The notes under the pieces are model-generated. The model was not told the origin of the DNA. It was given only the letters and a program-made list of their open reading frames with translations, and made no database searches. The position numbers and the translations under genes were made by a program. From Oscillospiraceae bacterium (GTDB lineage Bacteria > Bacillota > Clostridia > Oscillospirales > CAG-272), in the NCBI GenBank assembly GCA_015063585.1, contig SVTW01000014.1:1-41024 (forward strand): a DNA stretch of 41,024 nucleotides. Reading direction: 5' to 3'. Of the stretch, positions 25,894 through 40,753 are shown one piece after another; within the stretch, counting starts at the first letter, position 1, and every line of letters begins with the position of its first letter.

Positions 25894-28083
25894 ATGAAGA
25901 CCACAAGAATCCTGACCCTTGTTCTCGCATTGATTCTTGCTCTTTCTGCTTTCGTTGGCTGTAACAAGAAAGTTACCTACGAAGAGATTGACGACAATGA
26001 TGCAGTAGAACACACTGACTTTACCTCGGTCTATGAAACGATCGGCGGTGAAGTGACCATCGATATGGTTGAGGAAGATGAAGCAACCGGCTTGGCTTAC
26101 GTTACCGTTGACGGTACGAAGTATGAGCTTGGTATGGACTTCCTTTCCATGGCAATGGTTTACAACTGCTCCGTTCCTGCAAACAGCACCAAGTACACCA
26201 CTGAAGAGGCTGTTTTCAACGAATGGTGGAAGCTGTACATCCAGAGATGGAACTACCTCGCACCTGAAGTTCCGCTGTACTCCAACCAGTACTTCGATCT
26301 TTACAATGCAAAGATCCAGAACTTCGTAACCACTCCTTACTGGGCAGCAGCAGACGCAATCGTTGCAGCTACCATCAAGGAAGGCGCTGACAACTCGGTA
26401 ATTCTGGGTAGCGCAACCGAGCTCTCCGGTCTGTTCCGTAACTCCAGCTGGGGCAAATCCTCTCCCGGATCCTCTGACCTGGATATCGAGAACCTGACCT
26501 CCGGTCACGCAACCGTTCAGACCGACAAGACCGGTGCGTACATCTGGAACATGAGCGCTCTCGCAGAAGAGCCCGTGAAGACTGTTAACGCTGACGGCAC
26601 TCTGACCTACACCATTAAGGTAAAGGACAGCCTGAAGTTCTCCGACGGCTCCGCAATCAACGCAAAGAACTACATTGCTTCCCTCCTCGCAAACAGCACC
26701 GCTGTTTCTAAGGAAGCAGGCGGATCGGGTCAGTCCGGTCTGCAGCTCGTTGGCTTCGAAGCATTCAACGCATACACCGGTGAGGGCGAAACCGTTTACT
26801 TCTCCGGCGTGAAGCTCATCGACGACTACACCTTCTCCGTAACCTACCTCGCAGATTACGCAAACTACTACTATGCAATGGGCATGGCTTCCTTCTCTCC
26901 CGTTCCGCTTCAGCTCTACCTTGGTTCCAAGGGTGACATCGTTGTGAACGCAAACAAGGAATGCGGCCTGAACGCTGACTTCTACGCAACCGAGAAGAAG
27001 GACGGCAAGGACGTTTACGTTGTTGCAGGCGAGATCGTTGAGAACCTGAAGTGGAACTCCGCTCTGCCTTACTCCGGTCCTTACGTAGTTAAGAACTGGG
27101 ATGCATCCGCTCTGATCGCAACCCTCGAGCTCAACCCCAACTACTCGGGTGACGACGCAAGAGGCAAGGCTACCATTAAGACCATCACCTACATCAAGAC
27201 CGAGACCGAGACCCAGATGGATAAGTTCAAGAAGGGTGAAGTTGACGTTGTTGCCGGCATCACCGGCGGTAAGGAGACCAAGGACGCTCTCGCAGTTGTT
27301 GCCGGTGCTCCCGACAAGTACGCTGAGACCCACTACGACCGTGCAGGCTACGGTAAGCTCGGCTTCCGCGCTGACTTCGGCCCCACAGGCTTCATTGCAG
27401 TTCGTCAGGCTGTTATGTACTCCATCAACCGTCCTCTGTTCGCTCAGAACTTCACCGGCGGTTACGGCTCTGTTGTTGACGGTCCTTACTACGAGGGCTA
27501 CAGCGCATTCCAGGCTGTTAAGAATGACATCAACCTCAACTCCTACACCTACAGTGTAGACAACGCAATCGACGCTCTCGTTGACGGCGGCTGGATCTAC
27601 AACGTTGAGGGTAAGGAATTCAACGCTGAGAAGGATGCTGTTCGTTACAAGAAGCTCGAAGGCTACGAGAAGACCAAGGAAAACCTCCACTTCCAGTCTG
27701 TTGACGGCAAGTACAAGACCGTTAAGATCAACGGCGAGTACTACATGCCTCTCGCAATCAACTGGTACGGAACGCAGCCCAACGACGTTACTGACCAGCT
27801 CAAGATCGAGTGGGCAGACACCGCTGAGGCTACCACGAAGATCGGTATGTACATCACCTACACCGAGACCGACTTTACCACCGGTCTGTACGGTGAGTAC
27901 CTCCGTGATCCCGGCTCGGGCTACAACGGCACTCCTAAGCTGAACGCAATCAACTTTGCAACCGGATTCACCTCCGCTGCATACGATTACAGCTGGAACT
28001 GGACCATCGATCCCGATCTGTACGACGTATACTCTGCTTGCTACGTTAAGGACGCTGCAGACTATATGGAGAACTACAAATAA
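25894..28083 (+). CDS. oppA: Oligopeptide ABC transporter substrate-binding lipoprotein
   Basis: A 729-residue SBP family 5 (OppA/DppA) lipoprotein that captures peptides outside the membrane and delivers them to OppB/OppC. The signal peptide ends in a lipobox F-V-G-C with Cys23. Typical family features follow: the YTIKVKDSLKFSDG strand, KNYIASLL, LPYSGPYVVKNWD and KFKKGEVDVVAGI. It is longer than the usual 540-600 residues, with an acidic N-terminal extension to about residue 110 and extra loops near 600-650. GGAGG with a 7-nt spacer gives a strong start. A terminator hairpin follows it, which should make this the most abundant product of the operon. The actual ligand cannot be read from the sequence. 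Confidence 0.92.
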   Translation: MKTTRILTLVLALILALSAFVGCNKKVTYEEIDDNDAVEHTDFTSVYETIGGEVTIDMVEEDEATGLAYVTVDGTKYELGMDFLSMAMVYNCSVPANSTKYTTEEAVFNEWWKLYIQRWNYLAPEVPLYSNQYFDLYNAKIQNFVTTPYWAAADAIVAATIKEGADNSVILGSATELSGLFRNSSWGKSSPGSSDLDIENLTSGHATVQTDKTGAYIWNMSALAEEPVKTVNADGTLTYTIKVKDSLKFSDGSAINAKNYIASLLANSTAVSKEAGGSGQSGLQLVGFEAFNAYTGEGETVYFSGVKLIDDYTFSVTYLADYANYYYAMGMASFSPVPLQLYLGSKGDIVVNANKECGLNADFYATEKKDGKDVYVVAGEIVENLKWNSALPYSGPYVVKNWDASALIATLELNPNYSGDDARGKATIKTITYIKTETETQMDKFKKGEVDVVAGITGGKETKDALAVVAGAPDKYAETHYDRAGYGKLGFRADFGPTGFIAVRQAVMYSINRPLFAQNFTGGYGSVVDGPYYEGYSAFQAVKNDINLNSYTYSVDNAIDALVDGGWIYNVEGKEFNAEKDAVRYKKLEGYEKTKENLHFQSVDGKYKTVKINGEYYMPLAINWYGTQPNDVTDQLKIEWADTAEATTKIGMYITYTETDFTTGLYGEYLRDPGSGYNGTPKLNAINFATGFTSAAYDYSWNWTIDPDLYDVYSACYVKDAADYMENYK

Positions 28084-28424: not shown

Positions 28425-29459
28425 ATGTTAAAATATATCCTCAAACGTCTGCTCTATATCGCGGTTGTGTTTTTTATCCTGTCTTTTCTGATCTTTATGA
28501 TCTACAACATGCTGCCGGTTGATAAAGCGGCTGCAAAGGCAAGAGAAGAAGCGCAGGCAAACAAAAACCACCCCGACCCCGCCGCATACTATCAGGAGCG
28601 GTATGAGTATTGGCGCGACGAGTACGGACTCAACGGTACAAAATTTGAGCGCTATCTGCGCTGGCTCGGACTTTATCCTTATGCCGACGGCGATTTCAAC
28701 GGCCTCCTGCAGGGCAACCTCGGCATGTCGGTGGAGGAGAACAAGCCGGTTACCGAGGTGCTGGTTGAGCCGATGAAGAACACGATCTTTATCAACATCT
28801 TCGCAACCATTCTCGGTTTGGGCATCACGATCCCATTGGGTATTTTCTGTGCGGTGAAGCGAGGCAGTAAACGCGACCTCGGCGTGCAGGTGGGAACGAT
28901 CATCGGATACAGCTTGCCCACGTTTATTATCGCCATCGTGTTTATCTGGGTCTTTGCCGTCATGCTCGACTGGTTCCCCGTGTCGGGTATGGCTACGGCG
29001 GGAAGCCTGAACTGGTCGCCGATCAACCAATTCTGGGATAGAATGTATCACCTGGCTCTGCCGTTGATCGTTATGACCTTCTGCTCGCTCGGCGGTATGA
29101 CGCGCTACGTCCGCGCTTCCATGATTGAGGCTCTCTCGATGGACTGCGTACGCACGGCACGCGCAAAGGGTCTGCGCGAAAAGGCTGTTATCTACTCGCA
29201 CGCGTGGAGAAACGCCCTGATTCCGATCGTCACGCTTGTGATCGGTTGGTTCCTCGGTATCTTCGGCGGCTCGCTCATGATCGAGAATATCTTCTCGCTC
29301 AACGGTATCGGTAAGGTCTACTACGACGCGCTGACCGCAAACGACAACGAGGTCGTGCTCGCGCTCCAGATGTTCTATATCCTCATCTCGCTCGCGGGCA
29401 ACCTGATCATTGATATTGCATACGGATTTGTCGATCCTCGCGTCCGTGTCAATAAGTAA
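28425..29459 (+). CDS. oppB: Oligopeptide ABC transporter permease OppB
   Basis: A 344-residue inner membrane permease of the DppB/OppB type with six TM helices. The N-terminal helix (LYIAVVFFILSFLIFMIYNML) is followed by an extracellular loop of about 85 residues and the conserved GNLGMSVEENKPV segment. The cytoplasmic EAA loop is present as DCVRTARAKGLREKAVIYSHAWRNALIP and contacts the ATPases. The C-terminus DIAYGFVDPRVR is typical. AAAGGAGG precedes the ATG by about 9 nt. It is separated from oppA by 341 nt containing a terminator, a palindromic element and a possible minicistron, and lies 14 nt before oppC. Confidence 0.95.
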   Translation: MLKYILKRLLYIAVVFFILSFLIFMIYNMLPVDKAAAKAREEAQANKNHPDPAAYYQERYEYWRDEYGLNGTKFERYLRWLGLYPYADGDFNGLLQGNLGMSVEENKPVTEVLVEPMKNTIFINIFATILGLGITIPLGIFCAVKRGSKRDLGVQVGTIIGYSLPTFIIAIVFIWVFAVMLDWFPVSGMATAGSLNWSPINQFWDRMYHLALPLIVMTFCSLGGMTRYVRASMIEALSMDCVRTARAKGLREKAVIYSHAWRNALIPIVTLVIGWFLGIFGGSLMIENIFSLNGIGKVYYDALTANDNEVVLALQMFYILISLAGNLIIDIAYGFVDPRVRVNK

Positions 29460-29473
29460 AGGAGGCAGAAAAA

Positions 29474-31450
29474 ATGGCTGAAAAGAAAGATCATAAGCAA
29501 AATAACACTGCCTCGGAGAAGAAGTCTCTCGGATACGTGCTGGCAACCCCTTTCCGTTGGCTGTTCCGCATGTTCTTCGGAGCAAGCAAAACGATGGCAA
29601 ACGATATCTTTGCCGTGGAGAAGCTCGAAAGCCCTACCAAGCAGGCTGTCAAGTCCTTCTTCCGTCGTAAGATCGCCGTTACCGCGCTGGTGGTTTTGGT
29701 GGCACTCTTCCTGTTCGTCTTTATAGGCCCGCTCTTCATTCCGATGGATTTGACCTATTCCGACGCATTGCAGGCAAACATCGCGCCGAACTACGAGATG
29801 CTTTCCGTGCCCTCCGGACTGAAAGACGACGTCCGCGATATCAACGGTTACGCAAACTTCACGGTTGGTGTCAGCAATGACAACACCCTGTATATGTGGG
29901 GCTACACCAAGGACGCCCTGACAAAGGTCGACTACAAGAATTTCCCGGAAGAGATTCAGCCCGGTAAGGTATTCATGGCCGCTGCCGGAACCGACCACAT
30001 TATCGCCATTACCACCGACGGTAAGGTCGTTGGTTGGGGTGACAGAACCCGCGGTCAGTACGGCGAGGCAAACGCGGCAGACGCGCTGCTGCAGATGCCC
30101 GATTTCGTGATGAACGGCACGCTCGATACCTCCAAGGTTCAGCAGCTTGTTTGCGGATACCAGTCCACCGCGTTGGTTTATGACGGACAGCTCTATATGT
30201 GGGGTAACACCCGTGCGGTTCTGAATATGAATGAGCTGCTTGAGCTGACACGTACCTACACGGCGGAGAACAATACCCGCGTGGCAAAGATCGCGCTTTC
30301 CAACTATTATGCGATCGTTCTCTACGAGGACGGAACCATGACAGGCGGTAACACGCTCTTTAACCGCGACTCGGCATATTCCTCCAACGGCGGTAAGGTA
30401 CAAAACTTTGCGTCTTATCTGTCGAACAAAAAGATCACCGATATCGCCGCAACCGACGTTTGCTACGCATTCCTGACCGAGAGCGGTGAGGTTCTGGTAG
30501 CCGGCGCGTTCAAGTACGGCGAGGAGCTGATCCCTGCGCTGGAGGGCGAAAAGTTTGTTGAATTGAAGGCAGGCACACGTCATTTTCTCGGCTTGACCGA
30601 CCAGAATAAGGCGTATGCGTGGGGCCATAACGATAAGGGTCAGGCAAGCATTTACGGCAAGAGCGCAGATGCGATCTTTGCCGGCGCAAAGCAGAGCTAT
30701 TTGACCGACGAGGAGGACGATCTCACCCATAAGTGCGGTATGAAGGGCTATATCTTCGGAACCGACGGCAAGGGACGCGACGTCTTTACCCGTATCGTTC
30801 ACGGCGGTAAGATGACCATGACGGTTGGTGCCGTTGCGGTTATCGTATCTTCGATCATCGCAATCATCATCGGCTGTCTCTCGGGCTATTTCGGTGGCTG
30901 GGTGGACCTGCTTCTGATGCGTATTACCGAGATCTTCTCGGCAATCCCGTTCCTGCCGTTTGCGATGATGCTGTCCTTTGTAATACGAAATTACCCAATC
31001 AGTGAGAACACCCGAATCTTTATCATCATGATTATTTTGGGACTTTTGAGCTGGACGGGTCTTGCGCGTATGATCCGCGGACAGGTGCTGGCAGAGCGCG
31101 AAAAGGAATTCGTTATCGCGGCACAGTCGATGGGCGTTAAGGAAAACCGCATTGCCTTCAAGCACATTCTTCCCAACGTAATTTCGGTTATTCTCGTAAG
31201 CATGACGCTCGACTTCGCGGGCTGCTTGCTTACCGAGTCCTCGCTGTCCTACCTCGGATTTGGCGTGCAGCAGCCTCGCCCGACTTGGGGTAACATGCTG
31301 GACGGTGCAAACAACAGTATCGTAATTCAGAACTACTGGTGGCAGTGGGTATTCCCCGCGATCTTCCTTTCGATCGCAACCATCAGCATCAACATCATCG
31401 GCGATACGCTCCGCGACGTTCTTGACCCCAAGAGCAGCCGCGAGAAATAA
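29474..31450 (+). CDS. oppC: OppC-type permease with inserted RCC1-like propeller
   Basis: A 658-residue permease, about twice the usual ~300-340. Residues 1-90 are the OppC N-terminal region with TM1 at about 67-88. Residues about 104-415 are an insertion not found in ordinary OppC. It consists of repeating RCC1-like blades: NFTVGVSNDNTLYMWGY, MAAAGTDHIIAITTDGKVVGWG, LVCGYQSTALVYDGQLYMWGN, IALSNYYAIVLYEDGTMTGGN, IAATDVCYAFLTESGEVLVAG and LKAGTRHFLGLTDQNKAYAWG. The sequence then rejoins OppC at YIFGTDGKGRDVFTRIVHGG, followed by five TM helices and the EAA loop EFVIAAQSMGVKENRIAFKHILPN (about 545-568). The insertion lies in the first extracellular loop, beside the OppA docking side. AAAGGAGG lies upstream. 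The frame is uninterrupted, so this is a genuine fusion. Confidence 0.93.
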   Translation: MAEKKDHKQNNTASEKKSLGYVLATPFRWLFRMFFGASKTMANDIFAVEKLESPTKQAVKSFFRRKIAVTALVVLVALFLFVFIGPLFIPMDLTYSDALQANIAPNYEMLSVPSGLKDDVRDINGYANFTVGVSNDNTLYMWGYTKDALTKVDYKNFPEEIQPGKVFMAAAGTDHIIAITTDGKVVGWGDRTRGQYGEANAADALLQMPDFVMNGTLDTSKVQQLVCGYQSTALVYDGQLYMWGNTRAVLNMNELLELTRTYTAENNTRVAKIALSNYYAIVLYEDGTMTGGNTLFNRDSAYSSNGGKVQNFASYLSNKKITDIAATDVCYAFLTESGEVLVAGAFKYGEELIPALEGEKFVELKAGTRHFLGLTDQNKAYAWGHNDKGQASIYGKSADAIFAGAKQSYLTDEEDDLTHKCGMKGYIFGTDGKGRDVFTRIVHGGKMTMTVGAVAVIVSSIIAIIIGCLSGYFGGWVDLLLMRITEIFSAIPFLPFAMMLSFVIRNYPISENTRIFIIMIILGLLSWTGLARMIRGQVLAEREKEFVIAAQSMGVKENRIAFKHILPNVISVILVSMTLDFAGCLLTESSLSYLGFGVQQPRPTWGNMLDGANNSIVIQNYWWQWVFPAIFLSIATISINIIGDTLRDVLDPKSSREK

Positions 31451-31470: not shown

Positions 31471-32490
31471 ATGGCATTATTGGAAGTAAAGAACCTTCAC
31501 ACCTATTTCAAAACGAGAAAAGGTATTGTGAAGGCGGTAAACGATGTTTCCTACGAGCTGGAGCCGAAGAAAACATTGGGTATCGTTGGAGAGTCGGGAT
31601 CGGGTAAGTCGGTTTCGGCAATGAGTATTTTGCAGCTTCTGGACGGAAATGGCTATATTGCTGAGGGTGAGATCCTGTTTGACGGCATTGACCTGACCAA
31701 GCTCTCCCAGCAGCAGATGTACGATATCCGCGGCAACAAGATCTCGGTTATCTTCCAGGAACCGATGACCAGCCTGAACCCCGTGTTCACCGTGAAGCGT
31801 CAGCTCAGCGAGCCTTTTATGATCCATCAGAAGCTTTCGAAAAAGGAAGCGGAGAAGAAGGCTCTGGAGATCCTGTACGCCGTACAGATCCCCAACCCCG
31901 AGGCTGTTTTGCGTCAGTATCCGCACCAGCTTTCGGGCGGTATGCGTCAGCGCGTGATGATCGCGATGGCGTTGGCTTGTAAGCCGAAGATCCTGATTGC
32001 GGATGAGCCCACCACGGCGCTTGACGTTACCATTCAGGCACAGATCCTGCGCCTGATGAACGACCTGCAACGCGAGAACGGCACGTCGATCATCTTTATC
32101 ACCCACGACCTGGGCGTTATCAACGAGATGGCGGACGACGTTGTTGTTATGTATTGCGGACAGGTTGTGGAGCAGACCTCGGCAAGAACGATCTTTACCG
32201 ATTGCGAGCAGAGTCACCCCTACACCGAGGGCTTGATGTACAGTATCCCGCGTATGGATAACGTAACGCACAAGCTGGAGCCGATTCCCGGCGTGGTTCC
32301 GCACCCGCTGGCTCTGCCGAAGGGATGCAAATTTGCGCCTCGTTGCAAGTACGCAACGCAGAAGTGTATGGACGAGGAACCCACGCTGCGTGAGGTAGCG
32401 CCGGGTCAGAAGATCCGTTGCTTCTATCCTGAAAAGGAGGTAAGAAAGAGTGCCGAACACCAAAAAGCTCTTGTCAATCACGAATCTTAA
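31471..32490 (+). CDS. oppD: Oligopeptide ABC transporter ATPase OppD
   Basis: A 339-residue cytoplasmic ATPase that powers peptide import with OppF. Walker A GESGSGKS is at 40-47, the Q-loop lies in VIFQEPMTSLNP, the signature is LSGGMRQRV, Walker B is ILIADEPTTALD and the H-loop is FITHDLG. The C-terminal oligopeptide-transporter extension has four cysteines (GCKFAPRCKYATQKC and the later RCFYP), a pattern conserved in OppD/DppD proteins and suited to binding a metal or Fe-S cluster. Length is normal, in contrast to OppF. GGAGGGAG precedes the ATG. It overlaps oppF by 41 nt. Confidence 0.95.
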   Translation: MALLEVKNLHTYFKTRKGIVKAVNDVSYELEPKKTLGIVGESGSGKSVSAMSILQLLDGNGYIAEGEILFDGIDLTKLSQQQMYDIRGNKISVIFQEPMTSLNPVFTVKRQLSEPFMIHQKLSKKEAEKKALEILYAVQIPNPEAVLRQYPHQLSGGMRQRVMIAMALACKPKILIADEPTTALDVTIQAQILRLMNDLQRENGTSIIFITHDLGVINEMADDVVVMYCGQVVEQTSARTIFTDCEQSHPYTEGLMYSIPRMDNVTHKLEPIPGVVPHPLALPKGCKFAPRCKYATQKCMDEEPTLREVAPGQKIRCFYPEKEVRKSAEHQKALVNHES

Positions 32491-34081
32491 AAAATATTTT
32501 CCGGTTGCAAAGTCCCACCTGTTCCAGCGCGAGCAGCTTTACGTGCGCGCCAATGAGGAGATCACCATTGATATTTACAGCGGTGAGACCTTTGGACTCG
32601 TAGGTGAGTCGGGATGCGGAAAATCCACTCTGGGAAGAACCGTTCTCCAGCTCTATGATCAGACCGCGGGAAGCACGATCTATTACGGCATGACCATTGC
32701 CGAGCTTGCTCCGCAGTACGTTGCAAAGACCCTGAAGAACGCGCCCAAAATGATTGCTGAATATAAGAAGAAGCAGCAAAAGGCAGCACAGCTTGAAAAG
32801 GAATGTGAGGCAGCGGGGGAGGCGGCAACCTTCTTCCAGCACCAAAACAAGAACCTAGCTGTTGCAGAGGCTGAAACCGCGTTCCAGAACGTGGTGAAGA
32901 TCCTGGGCGGATTTGCCGCTCTGGATGATCCGCGTGAGGGTGCGGCGGCACTGCTGAAAAAGTATGATACCGACGTTAAGATCGCCGCGTTGAAGGCAAA
33001 GATCCGCGAGCTCGATGCTGAGATCGCGTTCTGCGAATCGCACATTGCGGAGCTCAAGGACGATACAAGTAAAAAGGCAGAGAAGAAGATCGCGAAGAAT
33101 CGCCGCGCAGAGGAGTCCTTCCGCACAACGCAGGCACACCATCGCGAAGCTCTTGCAAAGCTGGAGGAGACCTTGGCAGCAGACGTTGCCGCGATCGACG
33201 CTCTCAAAGCGCGTTACACCGAGCATGAGCTGTTTCAGGAATATGAAAAGCTTCTCGACAACGGTATCGACGTCAGCCGCCTGAAGTATTCCGAGATGCG
33301 TCTGCTCCGCAAGGACTTGCAGATCATCTTCCAGGACCCCTATTCCTCGCTTAACCCCCGTATGACGGTTGGTCAGATCATCGAGGAGGGCTTGGTAACC
33401 CATGGATATTTCAAGCACGGCTCGCCGCAGATGAAGGAGTATATCCTTGAGGTTATGCGTCAGTGTGGCTTGCAGGACTACATGCTCCACCGTTATCCGC
33501 ACCAATTCTCGGGCGGACAGCGTCAGAGAATCTGTATCGCGCGCGCGCTTGCCGTAAAGCCGCAGTTTATCGTTTGTGACGAGTGTGTTTCGGCGCTTGA
33601 CGTGTCGATTCAATCCCAGATCATCAACCTGCTGGAGGAATTGAAGGAGAAGGAAAAGCTGACCTACCTCTTCATTTCCCATGACCTTTCGGTCGTTCGT
33701 TATATTTCCGACCGCATCGGCGTTATGTATCTCGGAAATCTGGTTGAACTCGGAACCGCGGAGACCGTGTTCTCGGATCCCCGCCATCCCTACACCGTAG
33801 CACTTCTTTCCTCGATTCCCACAACCGACGTGGACAGCGCCAACAAGGAGCGTATCATTCTGGAGGGTAATATCCCCAGCCCGATCCGTCCGCCCGAAGG
33901 CTGTAAGTTCCACACGCGTTGCTACATGGCGTGCGAGAAGTGTAAGCGTGTGCCGCCTCCTTACGTTGAGGTGGAGAAGGGTCACTTTGTTGCTTGTCAT
34001 TTCCTGGATCGCAAGATCGACGAAAACGGCAACTATCTGTTTGATATTCCTACGCAAAAGCACGTACAGAAAGGAGAATGA
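32450..34081 (+). CDS. oppF: OppF-type ATPase with coiled-coil insertion
   Basis: The second transporter ATPase, 543 residues against the usual 310-340. Walker A GESGCGKST is at 52-60. Residues about 82-280 are an insertion of Lys, Glu, Ala and Gln-rich sequence with heptad-like spacing (AEYKKKQQKAAQLEKECE, ALKAKIRELDAEIAF, HREALAKLEETLAADVAA), predicted to fold as antiparallel coiled coil. The ATPase then resumes at LRKDLQIIFQDPYSSLNPRM (Q-loop Gln295), signature FSGGQRQR, Walker B FIVCDECVSALD, where Pro is replaced by Cys as in many OppF proteins, and H-loop FISHDLS. Four C-terminal cysteines (EGCKFHTRCYMACEKC) follow. The start is GTG at 32450, inside oppD, behind AAGGAGG at 9 nt. The frame is intact and catalytic motifs are complete. 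Confidence 0.93.
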   Translation: MPNTKKLLSITNLKKYFPVAKSHLFQREQLYVRANEEITIDIYSGETFGLVGESGCGKSTLGRTVLQLYDQTAGSTIYYGMTIAELAPQYVAKTLKNAPKMIAEYKKKQQKAAQLEKECEAAGEAATFFQHQNKNLAVAEAETAFQNVVKILGGFAALDDPREGAAALLKKYDTDVKIAALKAKIRELDAEIAFCESHIAELKDDTSKKAEKKIAKNRRAEESFRTTQAHHREALAKLEETLAADVAAIDALKARYTEHELFQEYEKLLDNGIDVSRLKYSEMRLLRKDLQIIFQDPYSSLNPRMTVGQIIEEGLVTHGYFKHGSPQMKEYILEVMRQCGLQDYMLHRYPHQFSGGQRQRICIARALAVKPQFIVCDECVSALDVSIQSQIINLLEELKEKEKLTYLFISHDLSVVRYISDRIGVMYLGNLVELGTAETVFSDPRHPYTVALLSSIPTTDVDSANKERIILEGNIPSPIRPPEGCKFHTRCYMACEKCKRVPPPYVEVEKGHFVACHFLDRKIDENGNYLFDIPTQKHVQKGE

Positions 34082-35400: not shown

Positions 35401-35429
35401 CCGTAAAATAAAATTATGTGGGGTGTATC

Positions 35430-36890
35430 ATGCTGAAACTGAACAAAGAAGCCTATTTGGATAAACTACATGCTTGTTGGATCGGTAAGAACATCGGAGG
35501 AACCTTGGGAGGGCCCTACGAGGGCAGTCATGCATTTTTGGATGTTCAGGGGTTTGCCACCGAGAGCGGTGTGCCGCTTCCCAACGATGATCTTGATCTT
35601 CAGCTCATCTGGCTTGCCGCAATGGAGCGGGTGGGTCCCGAACGTGTCAATACAAACGTGCTGGCCGATTATTGGCTGGAGTGGATGCCGCTTTATTGTA
35701 ACGAATACGGCACCTGCAAGACCAATCTGCGCCTCGGTCTCCTGCCGCCGATGAGCGGAGAGGTCGATAACGAGCGTTGGAAGACCTCTAACGGCGCGTG
35801 GATCCGCAGTGAAGTATGGGCGGCATTTGCCCCGGGTGTGAGTGATGTGGCGGTCAAATATGCCATCGCTGACGCTATGGTGGATCACGGACTTGCCGAG
35901 GGAACGCATGCCGAGGTGTTTACCGCAACCTTGCAAAGCCTTGCCTACGTGGAGAGCGATATTCGCGTGCTCCTGAATACGGCACTTTCCAAAATTCCCG
36001 AGAGCAGTGCCGTAGCCCGGACTGTGCGTCTTGTCATGGAGGCGTACGACAATGGCGTTGATTACAAAGAGACCCGTGAGCGTGTGCTCCGCTTCAACGC
36101 AGAGCTGGGATGGTTTCAGGCACCGAGCAACCTCGGATTCGTTACCATCGGTCTGCTTTACGGCGAGGGAGATTTCAAAAAATCTATGATTTATGCCGTA
36201 AATTGCGGTGACGATACCGATTGTACCGCCGCAACGGTTGGTGCAACGCTGGGTATCATCGGAGGAATGGCAGCCATTCCCGCCGATTGGAGCGCACACA
36301 TCGGTGACCGCATCGTCACGACCTCAATTTCCGGTATGCACAGCCAAAGCAAGCGTGTACCCAAAACCTGCACGGAGCTCACCGAGCGTATCGCGGCACT
36401 TCTGCCCCGCGTGATGCAGGCAAATCAGGTGGCGTTCCAATTCACCAATGAACAAACCGATTACCCGTCAGAGGATCTTGAAAAGTACAATCAGGTTTCT
36501 CCCGAGAAGTATTTTGCACGCTCGCCCTATTCCTACGAGATTACGCATTATGATTCCTTCCGTGTACGTGTAGAGCTAAGCGATACACCGCGTGTGGTGC
36601 CGGGCGATACGCGTCACGTCAAGCTCAGCGTTCAGGCAAACCCCATGATGCGCGAAACACACAAGCTTCAATTCCGATTGCTTCTTCCGGACGGATGGAG
36701 CGCGGGGCACCACCCCAAAACACTGTCGGTCCTCTACCCGCAACCGTTGCACGGTCTTTTCGGAGAGGCGTCCCTCGAGTTTGACCTCGTGGCAGGGGAG
36801 CGGGTGGAGGCTATCAACCGTGTCTATATGGAGATCACCGCCGCCAACCTGTGCTATCCCATGATGATCCCGATTACCCTGATCGGCTAA
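35430..36890 (+). CDS. ADP-ribosylglycohydrolase family protein
   Basis: A 486-residue protein with an N-terminal ADP-ribosylglycohydrolase (ADPRH/DraG-like) fold and a C-terminal beta domain. Metal-binding signatures are NDDLDLQ at about 52-58 and NCGDDTDCTAATVGATLG at about 258-275. Family members remove ADP-ribose from proteins or small molecules using two Mg ions. The C-terminal ~120 residues (VRVELSDTPRVVPGDTRHVKLSV...) look like an immunoglobulin-like beta sandwich. There is no signal peptide, so it is probably cytoplasmic. The start is ATG 35430 behind GGGG at 6 nt; GTG 35418 would add four residues. No target ADP-ribosyltransferase is seen nearby, and a role in sugar or nucleoside metabolism under the AraC regulator is equally possible. 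Confidence 0.88.
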   Translation: MLKLNKEAYLDKLHACWIGKNIGGTLGGPYEGSHAFLDVQGFATESGVPLPNDDLDLQLIWLAAMERVGPERVNTNVLADYWLEWMPLYCNEYGTCKTNLRLGLLPPMSGEVDNERWKTSNGAWIRSEVWAAFAPGVSDVAVKYAIADAMVDHGLAEGTHAEVFTATLQSLAYVESDIRVLLNTALSKIPESSAVARTVRLVMEAYDNGVDYKETRERVLRFNAELGWFQAPSNLGFVTIGLLYGEGDFKKSMIYAVNCGDDTDCTAATVGATLGIIGGMAAIPADWSAHIGDRIVTTSISGMHSQSKRVPKTCTELTERIAALLPRVMQANQVAFQFTNEQTDYPSEDLEKYNQVSPEKYFARSPYSYEITHYDSFRVRVELSDTPRVVPGDTRHVKLSVQANPMMRETHKLQFRLLLPDGWSAGHHPKTLSVLYPQPLHGLFGEASLEFDLVAGERVEAINRVYMEITAANLCYPMMIPITLIG

Positions 36891-37158: not shown

Positions 37159-37201
37159 AAGAATGTGCCCCTAGGCAAAAAATAAAAAGAGGAGAAGCAT
37201 G

Positions 37202-40200
37202 ATGAAAAAAGTATTATCGGCATTTTTAGCAATCATTATGGTGCTTTCTTTGATCCCCCTGACCGTTTTTGCGTTGCCTGCAGAAGCGGACGCATCAAAT
37301 GGCGGAATCAAATTTAGCGCCGATGAAAGTACCTTTGGCGGTGCAAGCGAGGAGTATTACCACGACGGCACGTTGTCGGAAATTCCGCACACCATTTCGG
37401 CGTGGGTCTATTTGGACGACGACGCGTATGCGGCAGGGGTCCGCAACACGGTGTTCAGTAATTTCCCCAACAACTACAACTACACGGGATACATGCATTT
37501 GGAGATCGACGCAGACAATCATCCGTATTTTGTATGGAAGAGAGCCGACGGTTCGGCTGCAAAATTTGTGTTTTCAGACGCAACGATTTCCAAGAATACC
37601 TGGACGATGATGACCATTGTGGTTGACGACGCGGCAGATCAGGTATGTTGTTATCTGGACGGAGCGCTGAAGCAGTCCATCAAGTGTATCACACCCATCG
37701 ATCCTACCGTAATTAATTTTGCCTTTAAGCTGGGCGGCAATTACTACCGTGAAGGATCGGCATTCAATCCCCGTTATTTTAAAGGAGAGTTGAAGGACTT
37801 TTTTGTATATGCCGATGCCCGTACGGCAGAGGAGATCGCTTCCGACTACGCAAACGGTCCTGCTTTGAATAACGTTGACCTTATCTGTGCATATGATATT
37901 GATGCAAACGATCAAGGGAAGAATCTGATCGACCTCAGTGGAAATGGCAACCATCTGTATTATAATAAGGTATGGCTTACCGAAGCAGAGATGGAAGTGT
38001 TGCGAGGGGATACCTCCAACAGAGAGTATGCCTTTGCCGTTGTTCCCGATCCTCAGTATATCACCGAATCCAGCCCCGAAAAGCTGAATGCTATGTATAA
38101 GTATATTGCGGACAACGTTCAGTCCAAAAATATTCAATACGTAATGGGAGTGGGTGACATTACCGATAACGACACCGATAGCGAGTGGCAGGTCGCTTAT
38201 AATGCGATTCGGCAGTTAGACGGTATCGTACCCTACACTTTGGTACGCGGAAATCACGATGTGCTTGAAACGAACAAAGGAAAGGGCTTTATCGATTACT
38301 TTGGCGGAGAAACTTTCTACGCAAAGCAATTTACCGATCCCGATGGCTACGAGGCAGGCTACTATGAAGGCACTCTTGTAAACTACCGCGGCGCTGAAGA
38401 GACCAACACCGTTGTAAACGCTTGGAGAACCCTGGAGGTTGGCGGCGATAAGTGGCTGATTATGGGATTGGATTGGGCTCCTCACAACGATCTTCTGAAG
38501 TGGGCGGCAGGCGTGATAGAAGCGCATCCCAACCATCGCGTTATCATTCTTACGCATAGCTACATCGGTGTCAGCGGACAGCATAATGACTTCCGTTTGG
38601 CGGAAGGTGTTGTAACGGCAGGAAAGCTGAAGAGCGGCTTTAACAATGGCGACGGAATTTGGGATAAGCTGGTTTCGCGCTACAGCAATATCGAAATGGT
38701 TCTTAGCGGACATATCCCCTCCAACACCATCGTGGTAGAGCAAAACAAAGGGGTATACGGAAACACCGTAACGCAGATGCTCATCGATTCCCAATATCAC
38801 GACCGTGATTGGGAGGGCGGAGTTGGTTTGGTTGCTTTGCTCTATGTTTCGAAGGACGGAAAAAGTGTTGATATTGAGTACTATTCCACCGTTACGGGAA
38901 AATATTTTGGCAGCATGAATCAACGCACCGTTGATCTTGAGGAAAAGGGAACCGAACCTTACACGAAATGGGACGGATACTCTGTTTTTGCACCTGCGGG
39001 AAGCGGCACGGAGGAGGATCCTTATCGGATTACCTGTGCGGAAAATCTTGCATGGATGTCGGCAATGTGCGCCTTTAAGTCGGGAACAAAGGTCAATCCC
39101 TTTGCGAAAAAATACTTCAAACAGATGTGTGACATTGACCTGAACGGTCAAACGCTGGAGCCGATCGGCAGCAATTACACTTCTTCTTCGGAATATGCGA
39201 TCTTTGGCGGAATATACGACGGACAGGGCTACCGCATTTACAACGGCTATATAAAGGACAACAGCAATGCGCAACAAAGCAAAGCGTGGGGTGTTGGTAT
39301 TTTTGGATTTGCGTATGATCCATCCACCAGCGGTACCTGCCTTATTAAAAACGTTGTCGCCGACAACATCACCGTCAGCGGTATGAGCCAGGCGGGTATC
39401 ATTGCAGGAAAAACCGTACACGTTCAGATTCAGAACTGTGTTGTAACCGACACCTGTACGCTGATCGGAACCGGAACCAAAACCGCTGCAGCTACCTCTG
39501 AGAGCATAATCGCCAACAAAACGCCTCAATGGAACGATACCACGCAAAACCGCTTGGGTGGAATCGTTGGTCATGCCGGTAAATCGGCGCACATCTATTA
39601 TTGCGTCAGCGCGGCAACCATTCAAACCAACGGAAACAACGCGATTGCAGGCGGAATTGTTGGTTCACTTGCCGATTCCCCCAACGTTGATTACAATGTA
39701 TTTAAGGGTAAGATTATCAATGACTTTACCGATACCGCATACTACCGCGAAATTGAAGGTGAAAACGTCAATGGCGGTATCATCGGATATATCGGCGGCA
39801 CCGGTACTTACAAAGTCACGGGAACCCGTTATTATCGGTATAACGTTAATGAGGGCAGCTTTGCAATCAAAGGAACAGCAACCACCGATGTGGTATATGG
39901 CGGCATTCTGGGCGCGGCGATCGATTGTGGCAACACAGCCAACCATCTGCAGCGCAACTTCCATATCAGCAACGAGATTGATTTGGGAGGAATACCGACA
40001 AGTGACGTATCGATCTATGTAGGCGGATTGGTTGGCAGAGTGACCAACAAGGACGGCGCAGCTATCACGCTTTCGCTCAAGGACTGTTATTCCATCGAAA
40101 CCGGCATCCAAAACGGCGGTGTGAACGTTGATACGGGTGTTTATACGGTAGAAAAAACTTATATTTATAACACAATTACCGAGAGCAGTGCCGGTACGAC

Positions 40201-40753
40201 AAAGCCGATTACAACCTCCGGCACCGTTGGAATATACGCAAAGAGCACCATTCTGAAATCAGAAAAATACACCGCACCGATCGCGACCGGCGAAGAAAAT
40301 CGCGCCGCGGGTAAGGATTCTGACGTTTTGAAGGTGGTTGGATATCAGAAGGCGGTTGACGAAAATGACTACCGTGTACGCGTGGTTTACGGGGTACAAA
40401 ATTTGGATCTCGTGCATTACGGATATGAAATGACCCTCACCTACACAAAGGACGGTCAGACCTATCATAAGACCGCTTCACTTACGAACAGCGTGGTTTA
40501 TACCGATATTTACGTTTATGATAACAACGAAAAAACGCCGTATAATGCCCAAGAGAACTGCGGAGTCCCCTATTTTGCTACGTTGGTTATCAATCCTTTG
40601 CTCAACGGCGAGATCATAGAGGGCGAGGCTGTATGTACCATCACCGCTTATACGGTCAGTGTGGACGGCTACCGTCATTCCTACGGCGCAGAGGCTGTAA
40701 CACTCGTCTTTACGGATGGCGTTCTTACAAAGCCTGAGGCAAATGTCAATTGA
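37202..40753 (+). CDS. Secreted LamG-metallophosphoesterase-GLUG-like protein
   Basis: A secreted 1183-residue protein. Residues 1-26 are a signal peptide (MKKVLSAFLAIIMVLSLIPL) with probable cleavage after VFA. Residues about 30-230 are a LamG/concanavalin-type domain (HTISAWVYLDD, YLDGALKQS, GELKDFFVYADARTAEEI). Residues about 275-590 are a calcineurin-like metallophosphoesterase with D-x-Q (VVPDPQY), GDITDND, RGNHD (about 347-351), THSY and SGH. From about 600 to 1020 come GLUG-like beta-helix repeats, introduced by GSGTEEDPYRI and containing repeated GGIVG / GGIIGYIGG motifs. The last ~140 residues form a beta domain (VRVVYGVQNLDLVHYGYEM...). No LPXTG, SLH or dockerin anchor is seen. ATG 37202 is preferred to 37199 by spacing from AGGAG. 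It probably acts on extracellular phosphoesters. Confidence 0.9.
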   Translation: MKKVLSAFLAIIMVLSLIPLTVFALPAEADASNGGIKFSADESTFGGASEEYYHDGTLSEIPHTISAWVYLDDDAYAAGVRNTVFSNFPNNYNYTGYMHLEIDADNHPYFVWKRADGSAAKFVFSDATISKNTWTMMTIVVDDAADQVCCYLDGALKQSIKCITPIDPTVINFAFKLGGNYYREGSAFNPRYFKGELKDFFVYADARTAEEIASDYANGPALNNVDLICAYDIDANDQGKNLIDLSGNGNHLYYNKVWLTEAEMEVLRGDTSNREYAFAVVPDPQYITESSPEKLNAMYKYIADNVQSKNIQYVMGVGDITDNDTDSEWQVAYNAIRQLDGIVPYTLVRGNHDVLETNKGKGFIDYFGGETFYAKQFTDPDGYEAGYYEGTLVNYRGAEETNTVVNAWRTLEVGGDKWLIMGLDWAPHNDLLKWAAGVIEAHPNHRVIILTHSYIGVSGQHNDFRLAEGVVTAGKLKSGFNNGDGIWDKLVSRYSNIEMVLSGHIPSNTIVVEQNKGVYGNTVTQMLIDSQYHDRDWEGGVGLVALLYVSKDGKSVDIEYYSTVTGKYFGSMNQRTVDLEEKGTEPYTKWDGYSVFAPAGSGTEEDPYRITCAENLAWMSAMCAFKSGTKVNPFAKKYFKQMCDIDLNGQTLEPIGSNYTSSSEYAIFGGIYDGQGYRIYNGYIKDNSNAQQSKAWGVGIFGFAYDPSTSGTCLIKNVVADNITVSGMSQAGIIAGKTVHVQIQNCVVTDTCTLIGTGTKTAAATSESIIANKTPQWNDTTQNRLGGIVGHAGKSAHIYYCVSAATIQTNGNNAIAGGIVGSLADSPNVDYNVFKGKIINDFTDTAYYREIEGENVNGGIIGYIGGTGTYKVTGTRYYRYNVNEGSFAIKGTATTDVVYGGILGAAIDCGNTANHLQRNFHISNEIDLGGIPTSDVSIYVGGLVGRVTNKDGAAITLSLKDCYSIETGIQNGGVNVDTGVYTVEKTYIYNTITESSAGTTKPITTSGTVGIYAKSTILKSEKYTAPIATGEENRAAGKDSDVLKVVGYQKAVDENDYRVRVVYGVQNLDLVHYGYEMTLTYTKDGQTYHKTASLTNSVVYTDIYVYDNNEKTPYNAQENCGVPYFATLVINPLLNGEIIEGEAVCTITAYTVSVDGYRHSYGAEAVTLVFTDGVLTKPEANVN

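Follow-up and report, generated by a model that had tools for sequence, protein, structure and literature searches.

The window, that is, the whole stretch of 41,024 nucleotides that we analysed, encodes a complete peptide-type importer (OppA-B-C-D-F) whose OppC, judging from profile matches and a structural model, is an Opp/Dpp-type permease with one RCC1-type propeller in the loop between TM1 and TM2. From the comparison of its relatives, the propeller looks like one old insertion. It is found together with a particular lineage of OppA, and the OppA of the window's subclade is itself, on alignment and modelling evidence, a natural circular permutant. Together, the propeller and the permuted OppA suggest a rebuilt way of handing substrate to the pump. 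The importer is a known kind varied, not a new kind of system. Its genes and their main parts are the following (positions in the window).

25894..28083, plus strand: OppA, substrate-binding lipoprotein, circularly permuted, 729 aa, with an SBP_bac_5 match and an invariant Cys23
26131..26385, plus strand: transposed segment of OppA, residues ~80-164, homologous to the C-terminal tail of ordinary OppAs
28425..29459, plus strand: OppB, permease without a propeller; the DppB scoop, as described in excerpts of PMC12136057, corresponds in topology to its TM1-TM2 region
29474..31450, plus strand: OppC-type permease with RCC1 propeller insert, 658 aa, a single open frame
29654..29737, plus strand: TM1 of OppC, residues ~61-88 (hydrophobic 61-96, DSSP helix 66-88, Pfam OppC_N 53-105)
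29804..30739, plus strand: predicted seven-bladed RCC1-type beta-propeller, residues ~111-422
30740..30763, plus strand: point at which blade 7 passes, without a linker, into the conserved GTDxxGRD segment ahead of TM2 (residues 423-430)
30743..31435, plus strand: ordinary permease core, TM2-TM6, residues 424-654
31471..32490, plus strand: OppD, ATPase
32450..34081, plus strand: OppF, ATPase carrying ~190 additional residues; the GTG start as listed lies inside OppD and is possibly not the real one

The permease part of the window's OppC has the fold of the solved OppC and DppC chains, and residues 424-654 match E. coli OppC at 5.7e-52 in a sequence search of the PDB. Both permease domains pass the curated Pfam cut-offs (OppC_N, 39.7 versus 23.9 bits; BPD_transp_1, 117.5 versus 26.4 bits), with the second covering residues 463-654 of the core. 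Among curated groups, the NCBIfam equivalog Opp4C comes closest, but the protein is not a member, since its 309.7 bits fall below the cut-off of 350. RCC1-type repeats lie between residues 120 and 392 and also exceed their cut-offs (RCC1_2, 98.3 versus 22; RCC1, 26.5 versus 21.7); WD40_RLD scores 132.5, under its cut-off of 150. In the PDB sequence search, this insert matches UVR8 (4.8e-27), HERC2, RPGR, RCC1, and BLIP-II. The GC content along the gene is 0.51-0.55.

A reading made from the sequence alone had proposed that TM1 and the FGTDGKGRD segment are separated by an RCC1-like propeller that lies outside the membrane. Hydropathy and homology to solved OppC bear this out, and the predicted structure, in which a missing propeller would have told against the idea, does contain one. 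The same reading had counted six blades, a number that the model and the relatives rule out: both give seven, at residues 120-143, 166-189, 222-245, 270-309, 321-344, 361-384, and 400-422 of the window's OppC, the one propeller-OppC whose fold was modelled. The extracellular location is inferred from the parity of the transmembrane helices, as given by hydropathy and the solved homologue. The last strand of the propeller enters the conserved GTD segment before TM2 without a linker, and the spacing there is fixed: the glycine of the last blade stands exactly 7 residues ahead of G[TS]D in 107 of 107 other propeller-OppCs (106 found by pattern, L100 by eye).

A scan of genome contigs resulted in the identification of 64 loci, 63 of them with the insert (L051 is partial, L063 is a second copy like L029, and L062 has no insert). 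Propeller-OppCs occur in two of the 25 genomes searched in the genus sample (G000 and G004), in 22 of 295 genomes of the order sample (plus G069, where the gene adjoins OppA and is cut by the contig end), in 17 of 391 of the class sample (22 matches, five being OppCs without a propeller match), and in 14 of 398 of the phylum sample; the order, class, and phylum samples overlap, and their counts cannot be added. The distribution is thus widespread but patchy, which implies loss or transfer. We inferred a phylogeny from the permease core only, leaving out L063, L065, L066, and L114. The 108 propeller-bearing rows form one side of a branch with 100/99 support that is present in all 200 bootstrap trees, against a contrast set of 30 rows without propeller that is small and includes some long branches (L130, labelled short, is a cut frame). 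The RCC1 propeller profile matches every member of the propeller clade in this tree. A search with the core alone in the 295 genomes of the order gave a consistent picture: all 21 matches at E <= 1e-84 are propeller-OppCs, and after a gap come 11 further matches at 3e-67 to 3e-65 with identity of at most 46%, four of which were checked and have no RCC1 match (G027, G037, G137, and G276). Hence, no propeller-free member of the clade was seen among these genomes. The tree of the propeller itself, in which 59 propeller rows were joined by just 3 RCC1 proteins of other kinds, says little about its origin. We found no description of the architecture in the literature searched, which covered few subscription papers, and to our knowledge the clade is annotated only as 'ABC transporter permease'.

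The genes of the importer lie in the order OppA-B-C-D-F on one strand in 53 of 63 relative loci. Nine of the remaining loci are cut by contig ends, and L061 escapes the rule through an OppA frame that begins far upstream. The OppA lineage of the window was detected (1e-25) in 25 of the 295 genomes of the order, including all 22 with a propeller-OppC. The two genes share a contig in 18 of these 22 and are on separate contigs in G105, G159, G229, and G247. Of the other three genomes, G069 has the cut propeller-OppC mentioned above, the contig of G258 ends just behind OppA, and G136 has a lone OppA of this lineage (L187, G136:C90) with no OppB or OppC match within the 14 kb read. Around propeller-less sister and other OppCs, the window's OppA matches only two of 16 stretches, and these weakly (L166, 39 bits; L179, 49 bits), by blastp at 1e-4, L174 being too short to contain an OppA. 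The searches of the flanks of the propeller loci took in Opp proteins only. Overall, the genomic association fits an OppA-facing role of the propeller. Mirror-tree analysis of 51 operons gave partial correlations of 0.22 for propeller and OppA (a value that 3 of 500 label permutations, a loose control, also attained), 0.37 for propeller and OppB, and 0.34 for core and OppA. The first is below the other two, so OppA is not singled out.

The OppA of the window has an SBP_bac_5 match and a binding-protein fold (AF2 model from 50 sequences, pLDDT 93), and the sequence-only reading had missed that its chain order is unusual. Solved binding proteins align to residues ~158-725 of the model only and stop short of their own C-termini; the alignment to 1b52_A, for instance, ends at residue 448 of its 515-residue OppA chain. 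The missing part appears to be at the other end. Residues 81-163 match the very C-termini of the OppAs of L188 and L186 by blastp, and by eye the window's LGMDFLSMAMVYN...WNYLAPEVPLYSNQYFDLYNAKIQNF resembles the C-terminus of L182, LGMDYLSMAMVYD...WNELMPDIPLYSNYYFDVYNAKIQNF. A profile of nine segments (that of the window and eight ordinary tails) has a single convincing hit, to residues 503-558 of the 562-residue solved OppA 9p48 (E 6e-13). This chain is the best sequence match to the window's OppA among solved structures, and it carries the tail segment C-terminally. The window's protein has its tail homologue at residues 80-164 and none at the C-terminus, and so departs from the ordinary chain order with a PLYSN-type tail. 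From these alignments and the model, we conclude that the OppA of the window's subclade is a natural circular permutant whose N-terminal segment of ~85 residues corresponds to the C-terminal tail of ordinary OppAs.

We ran a profile of residues 80-164 over all OppA frames to label their order. The OppA partners of 83 of the 108 propeller rows in the tree could be labelled (25 could not): 51 carry the segment at the N-terminus and 32 at the C-terminus, numbers that are not all independent because they include near-copies (L021/L022 and L048/L049) and a pair with identical cores that may be one record (L015/L115). The profile assigned no order to six OppA frames or fragments, which include L062 and the orphan L187. 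In the C-terminal type, the segment ends at most 12 residues from the stop in 37 of 38 frames, duplicates included. In the N-terminal type, we found no credible second copy of the segment (two hits of 2 bits only), and a lipobox-like pattern precedes it by 53-108 residues in 48 of 50 frames, the exceptions being L029, without the pattern, and L209, cut by the end of the stretch. On the core tree, the chain order requires 2 changes, or 1 without L043; since L043 sits on an open fork, the permutation corresponds to one or two events. Within the propeller clade, the permuted form occupies a nested position, which places the propeller first and the permutation later. Both permuted and ordinary OppAs accompany propeller-OppCs, and the permutation is thus not needed for the propeller.

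The sequence-only reading suggested that the propeller could gate, select, or recruit substrate. The function that we consider most likely, although we hold it tentatively, is that of a platform on which OppA docks and is oriented. The propeller would face the cell wall and contribute to the surface on which the lipid-anchored OppA docks, topologically opposite the scoop of OppB. There it could keep OppA in place or in the right orientation over the pore and assist in sealing the outward-facing cavity, and the rigid junction of blade 7 might let TM2 feel the docking. The permutation shifts the point at which the lipid-anchored N-terminus enters the OppA fold, perhaps a further modification of this one interface. 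Two known systems make this the preferred reading. In E. coli Dpp, according to excerpts of PMC12136057, the periplasmic TM1-TM2 region of DppB forms a scoop; it reaches into the cleft of DppA and closes off the outward cavity, and growth on dipeptide suffers when it is removed. The same excerpts describe DppB and DppC as similar in overall fold and strikingly different in TM1 and the TM1-TM2 region, so that equivalence of the loops refers to topology, and their shapes need not correspond. The second system is MalF-P2, a large (180 aa), clade-restricted extracytoplasmic domain in one permease subunit of enteric maltose permeases (excerpts of PMC2246101), which contacts the binding protein in a simulation study (excerpts of PMC3150292). 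The propeller resembles it in being large, clade-restricted, extracytoplasmic, and confined to one permease subunit. However, MalF-P2 lies between TM3 and TM4 of a permease of another family, and the propeller between TM1 and TM2 of OppC. Hence, any likeness to MalF-P2 would at most be one of working, achieved with another fold and in another loop. The position in the loop, the fixed junction, the restriction to one clade with no loss seen, the company of OppA, the selection described below, and the permuted OppA all argue for docking. On the other side, the company of genes in one operon could be plain operon inheritance, and the fast evolution of the propeller also fits the binding of something outside the transporter.

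This last point brings in the main rival, to which we give a smaller though still appreciable chance: the propeller would be a built-in second receptor beside the pore that binds substrate, or a partner that makes substrate (e.g., a surface protease, or a cell-wall or host polymer), and OppA would deliver in the ordinary way. Mean identity to the window over 60 relatives is 46% for the propeller versus 81% for the core. The core has a median dN/dS of 0.07 (Nei-Gojobori, 27 usable pairs), compared with 0.30 for the propeller. Among the informative pairs, the three least affected by saturation yield propeller values of 0.10, 0.12, and 0.14; in one near-identical pair, dN is 0. Most of the remaining pairs have dS near 1 or above, and the highest value, 0.69, comes from a saturated pair. 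The propeller, as far as codon comparisons can tell, is thus kept under purifying selection yet evolves faster than the core around the pore. This faster evolution fits a receptor and a docking surface equally well. Extracellular RCC1-type propellers do bind proteins, e.g., BLIP-II and beta-lactamase, as titles of structure entries state, and the RCC1-like ectodomain of CRINKLY4 kinases is presumed to bind a peptide or protein ligand (excerpts of PMC4617170). Against the receptor, no ligand is known or predicted for the propeller of OppC.

The same OppC loop carries other inserts elsewhere, and these bear on two weaker readings. A second type, of 214-395 aa, is found in sister OppCs (L164, L166, L167, L172, and L173), and its members are related to each other beyond every shuffle in 7 of 10 comparisons. 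Some show repeat-like 'F.YDG..Y' motifs, with a self-repeat signal that exceeds every one of 100 shuffles only in L164 and L167. A third type, of ~215 aa, is found in a more distant OppC clade (L177, the same gene as that of L085), and L082-L084 and L086 have inserts of like length. Neither type has an RCC1 or other convincing Pfam match, and neither resembles the propeller or the other type beyond shuffles. The loop therefore seems to accept whole domains repeatedly. One could take from this that bulk as such is tolerated or useful there, and that the propeller, outside by transmembrane parity, holds the transporter in place or at a set distance in the cell wall, or brings several transporters together, without acting in transport directly. 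We consider this unlikely: a linker-free junction of invariant length exceeds what a tether needs. The unrelated inserts, which span 209 to 395 residues in other clades, would equally suit a nearly neutral passenger at a permissive loop. Purifying selection, a propeller profile matched in every member of the tree, and the lack of any propeller-free core seen in the clade make a passenger very improbable. An artefact of assembly or annotation, which might be suspected since nearly all named relatives are metagenome-assembled genomes, is ruled out by the single-frame architecture shared by 62 loci (L051 partial) and further genomes across the samples, two of them single-contig (G342 and G359).

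The inserts also allow a broader and rather speculative reading, in which the TM1-TM2 loop of OppC is an evolutionary socket that has received unrelated extracellular domains at least three times. The propeller with the permuted OppA would then be one redesigned docking geometry, or OppC would itself be a receptor, and delivery would differ in kind from that of Opp/Dpp.

We compared the system with the Opp/Dpp importers OppBCDF and DppABCDF of E. coli and OppABCD and DppABCD of M. tuberculosis. The solved OppC and DppC chains among the matches listed have 273-289 residues and no propeller, whereas the window's OppC has one; likewise, the permuted OppA sets the window's system apart from the importers compared. 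Seven-bladed RCC1-type propellers outside cells are found in BLIP-II and in the ectodomains of CRINKLY4/ACR4, as in OppC. The likeness to BLIP-II, a free secreted inhibitor, is one of fold only, and the propeller of CRINKLY4 is the ectodomain of a kinase, whereas that of OppC is inserted inside a transporter subunit. The docking of binding proteins on type I importers has been worked out for the small-loop Dpp scoop and for MalF-P2 (in the excerpts cited above). A conserved propeller at the presumed docking face, with a permuted OppA in one subclade, would be a natural experiment on the parts of this interface. Many of the named relatives are metagenome assemblies from animal guts, an environment in which peptide uptake probably matters, and the architecture provides a sequence mark for this clade of transporters.

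OppF of the window is longer by ~190 residues, which lie between Walker A and about residue 267, are rich in lysine and glutamate, and are probably helical, judging by eye. A tie between this insert and the propeller is ruled out, as 61 propeller loci comprise 36 OppF frames of at least 520 aa and 25 of at most 496 (lengths from stop-to-stop frames, one of them split). Downstream of the operon, the window encodes an ADP-ribosylglycohydrolase-family protein (35418-36890) and a 1184-aa protein with laminin-G and metallophosphoesterase domains (37199-40753). OppC, OppA, and two downstream proteins have no match to defence systems at E 0.001. The genome of the window also encodes a separate RCC1-repeat protein in a 573-aa frame (G000:C39:29094-30104, minus strand). 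Congeners have proteins like it (L092-L094), two of which (L092 and L094) start with signal-peptide-like stretches.
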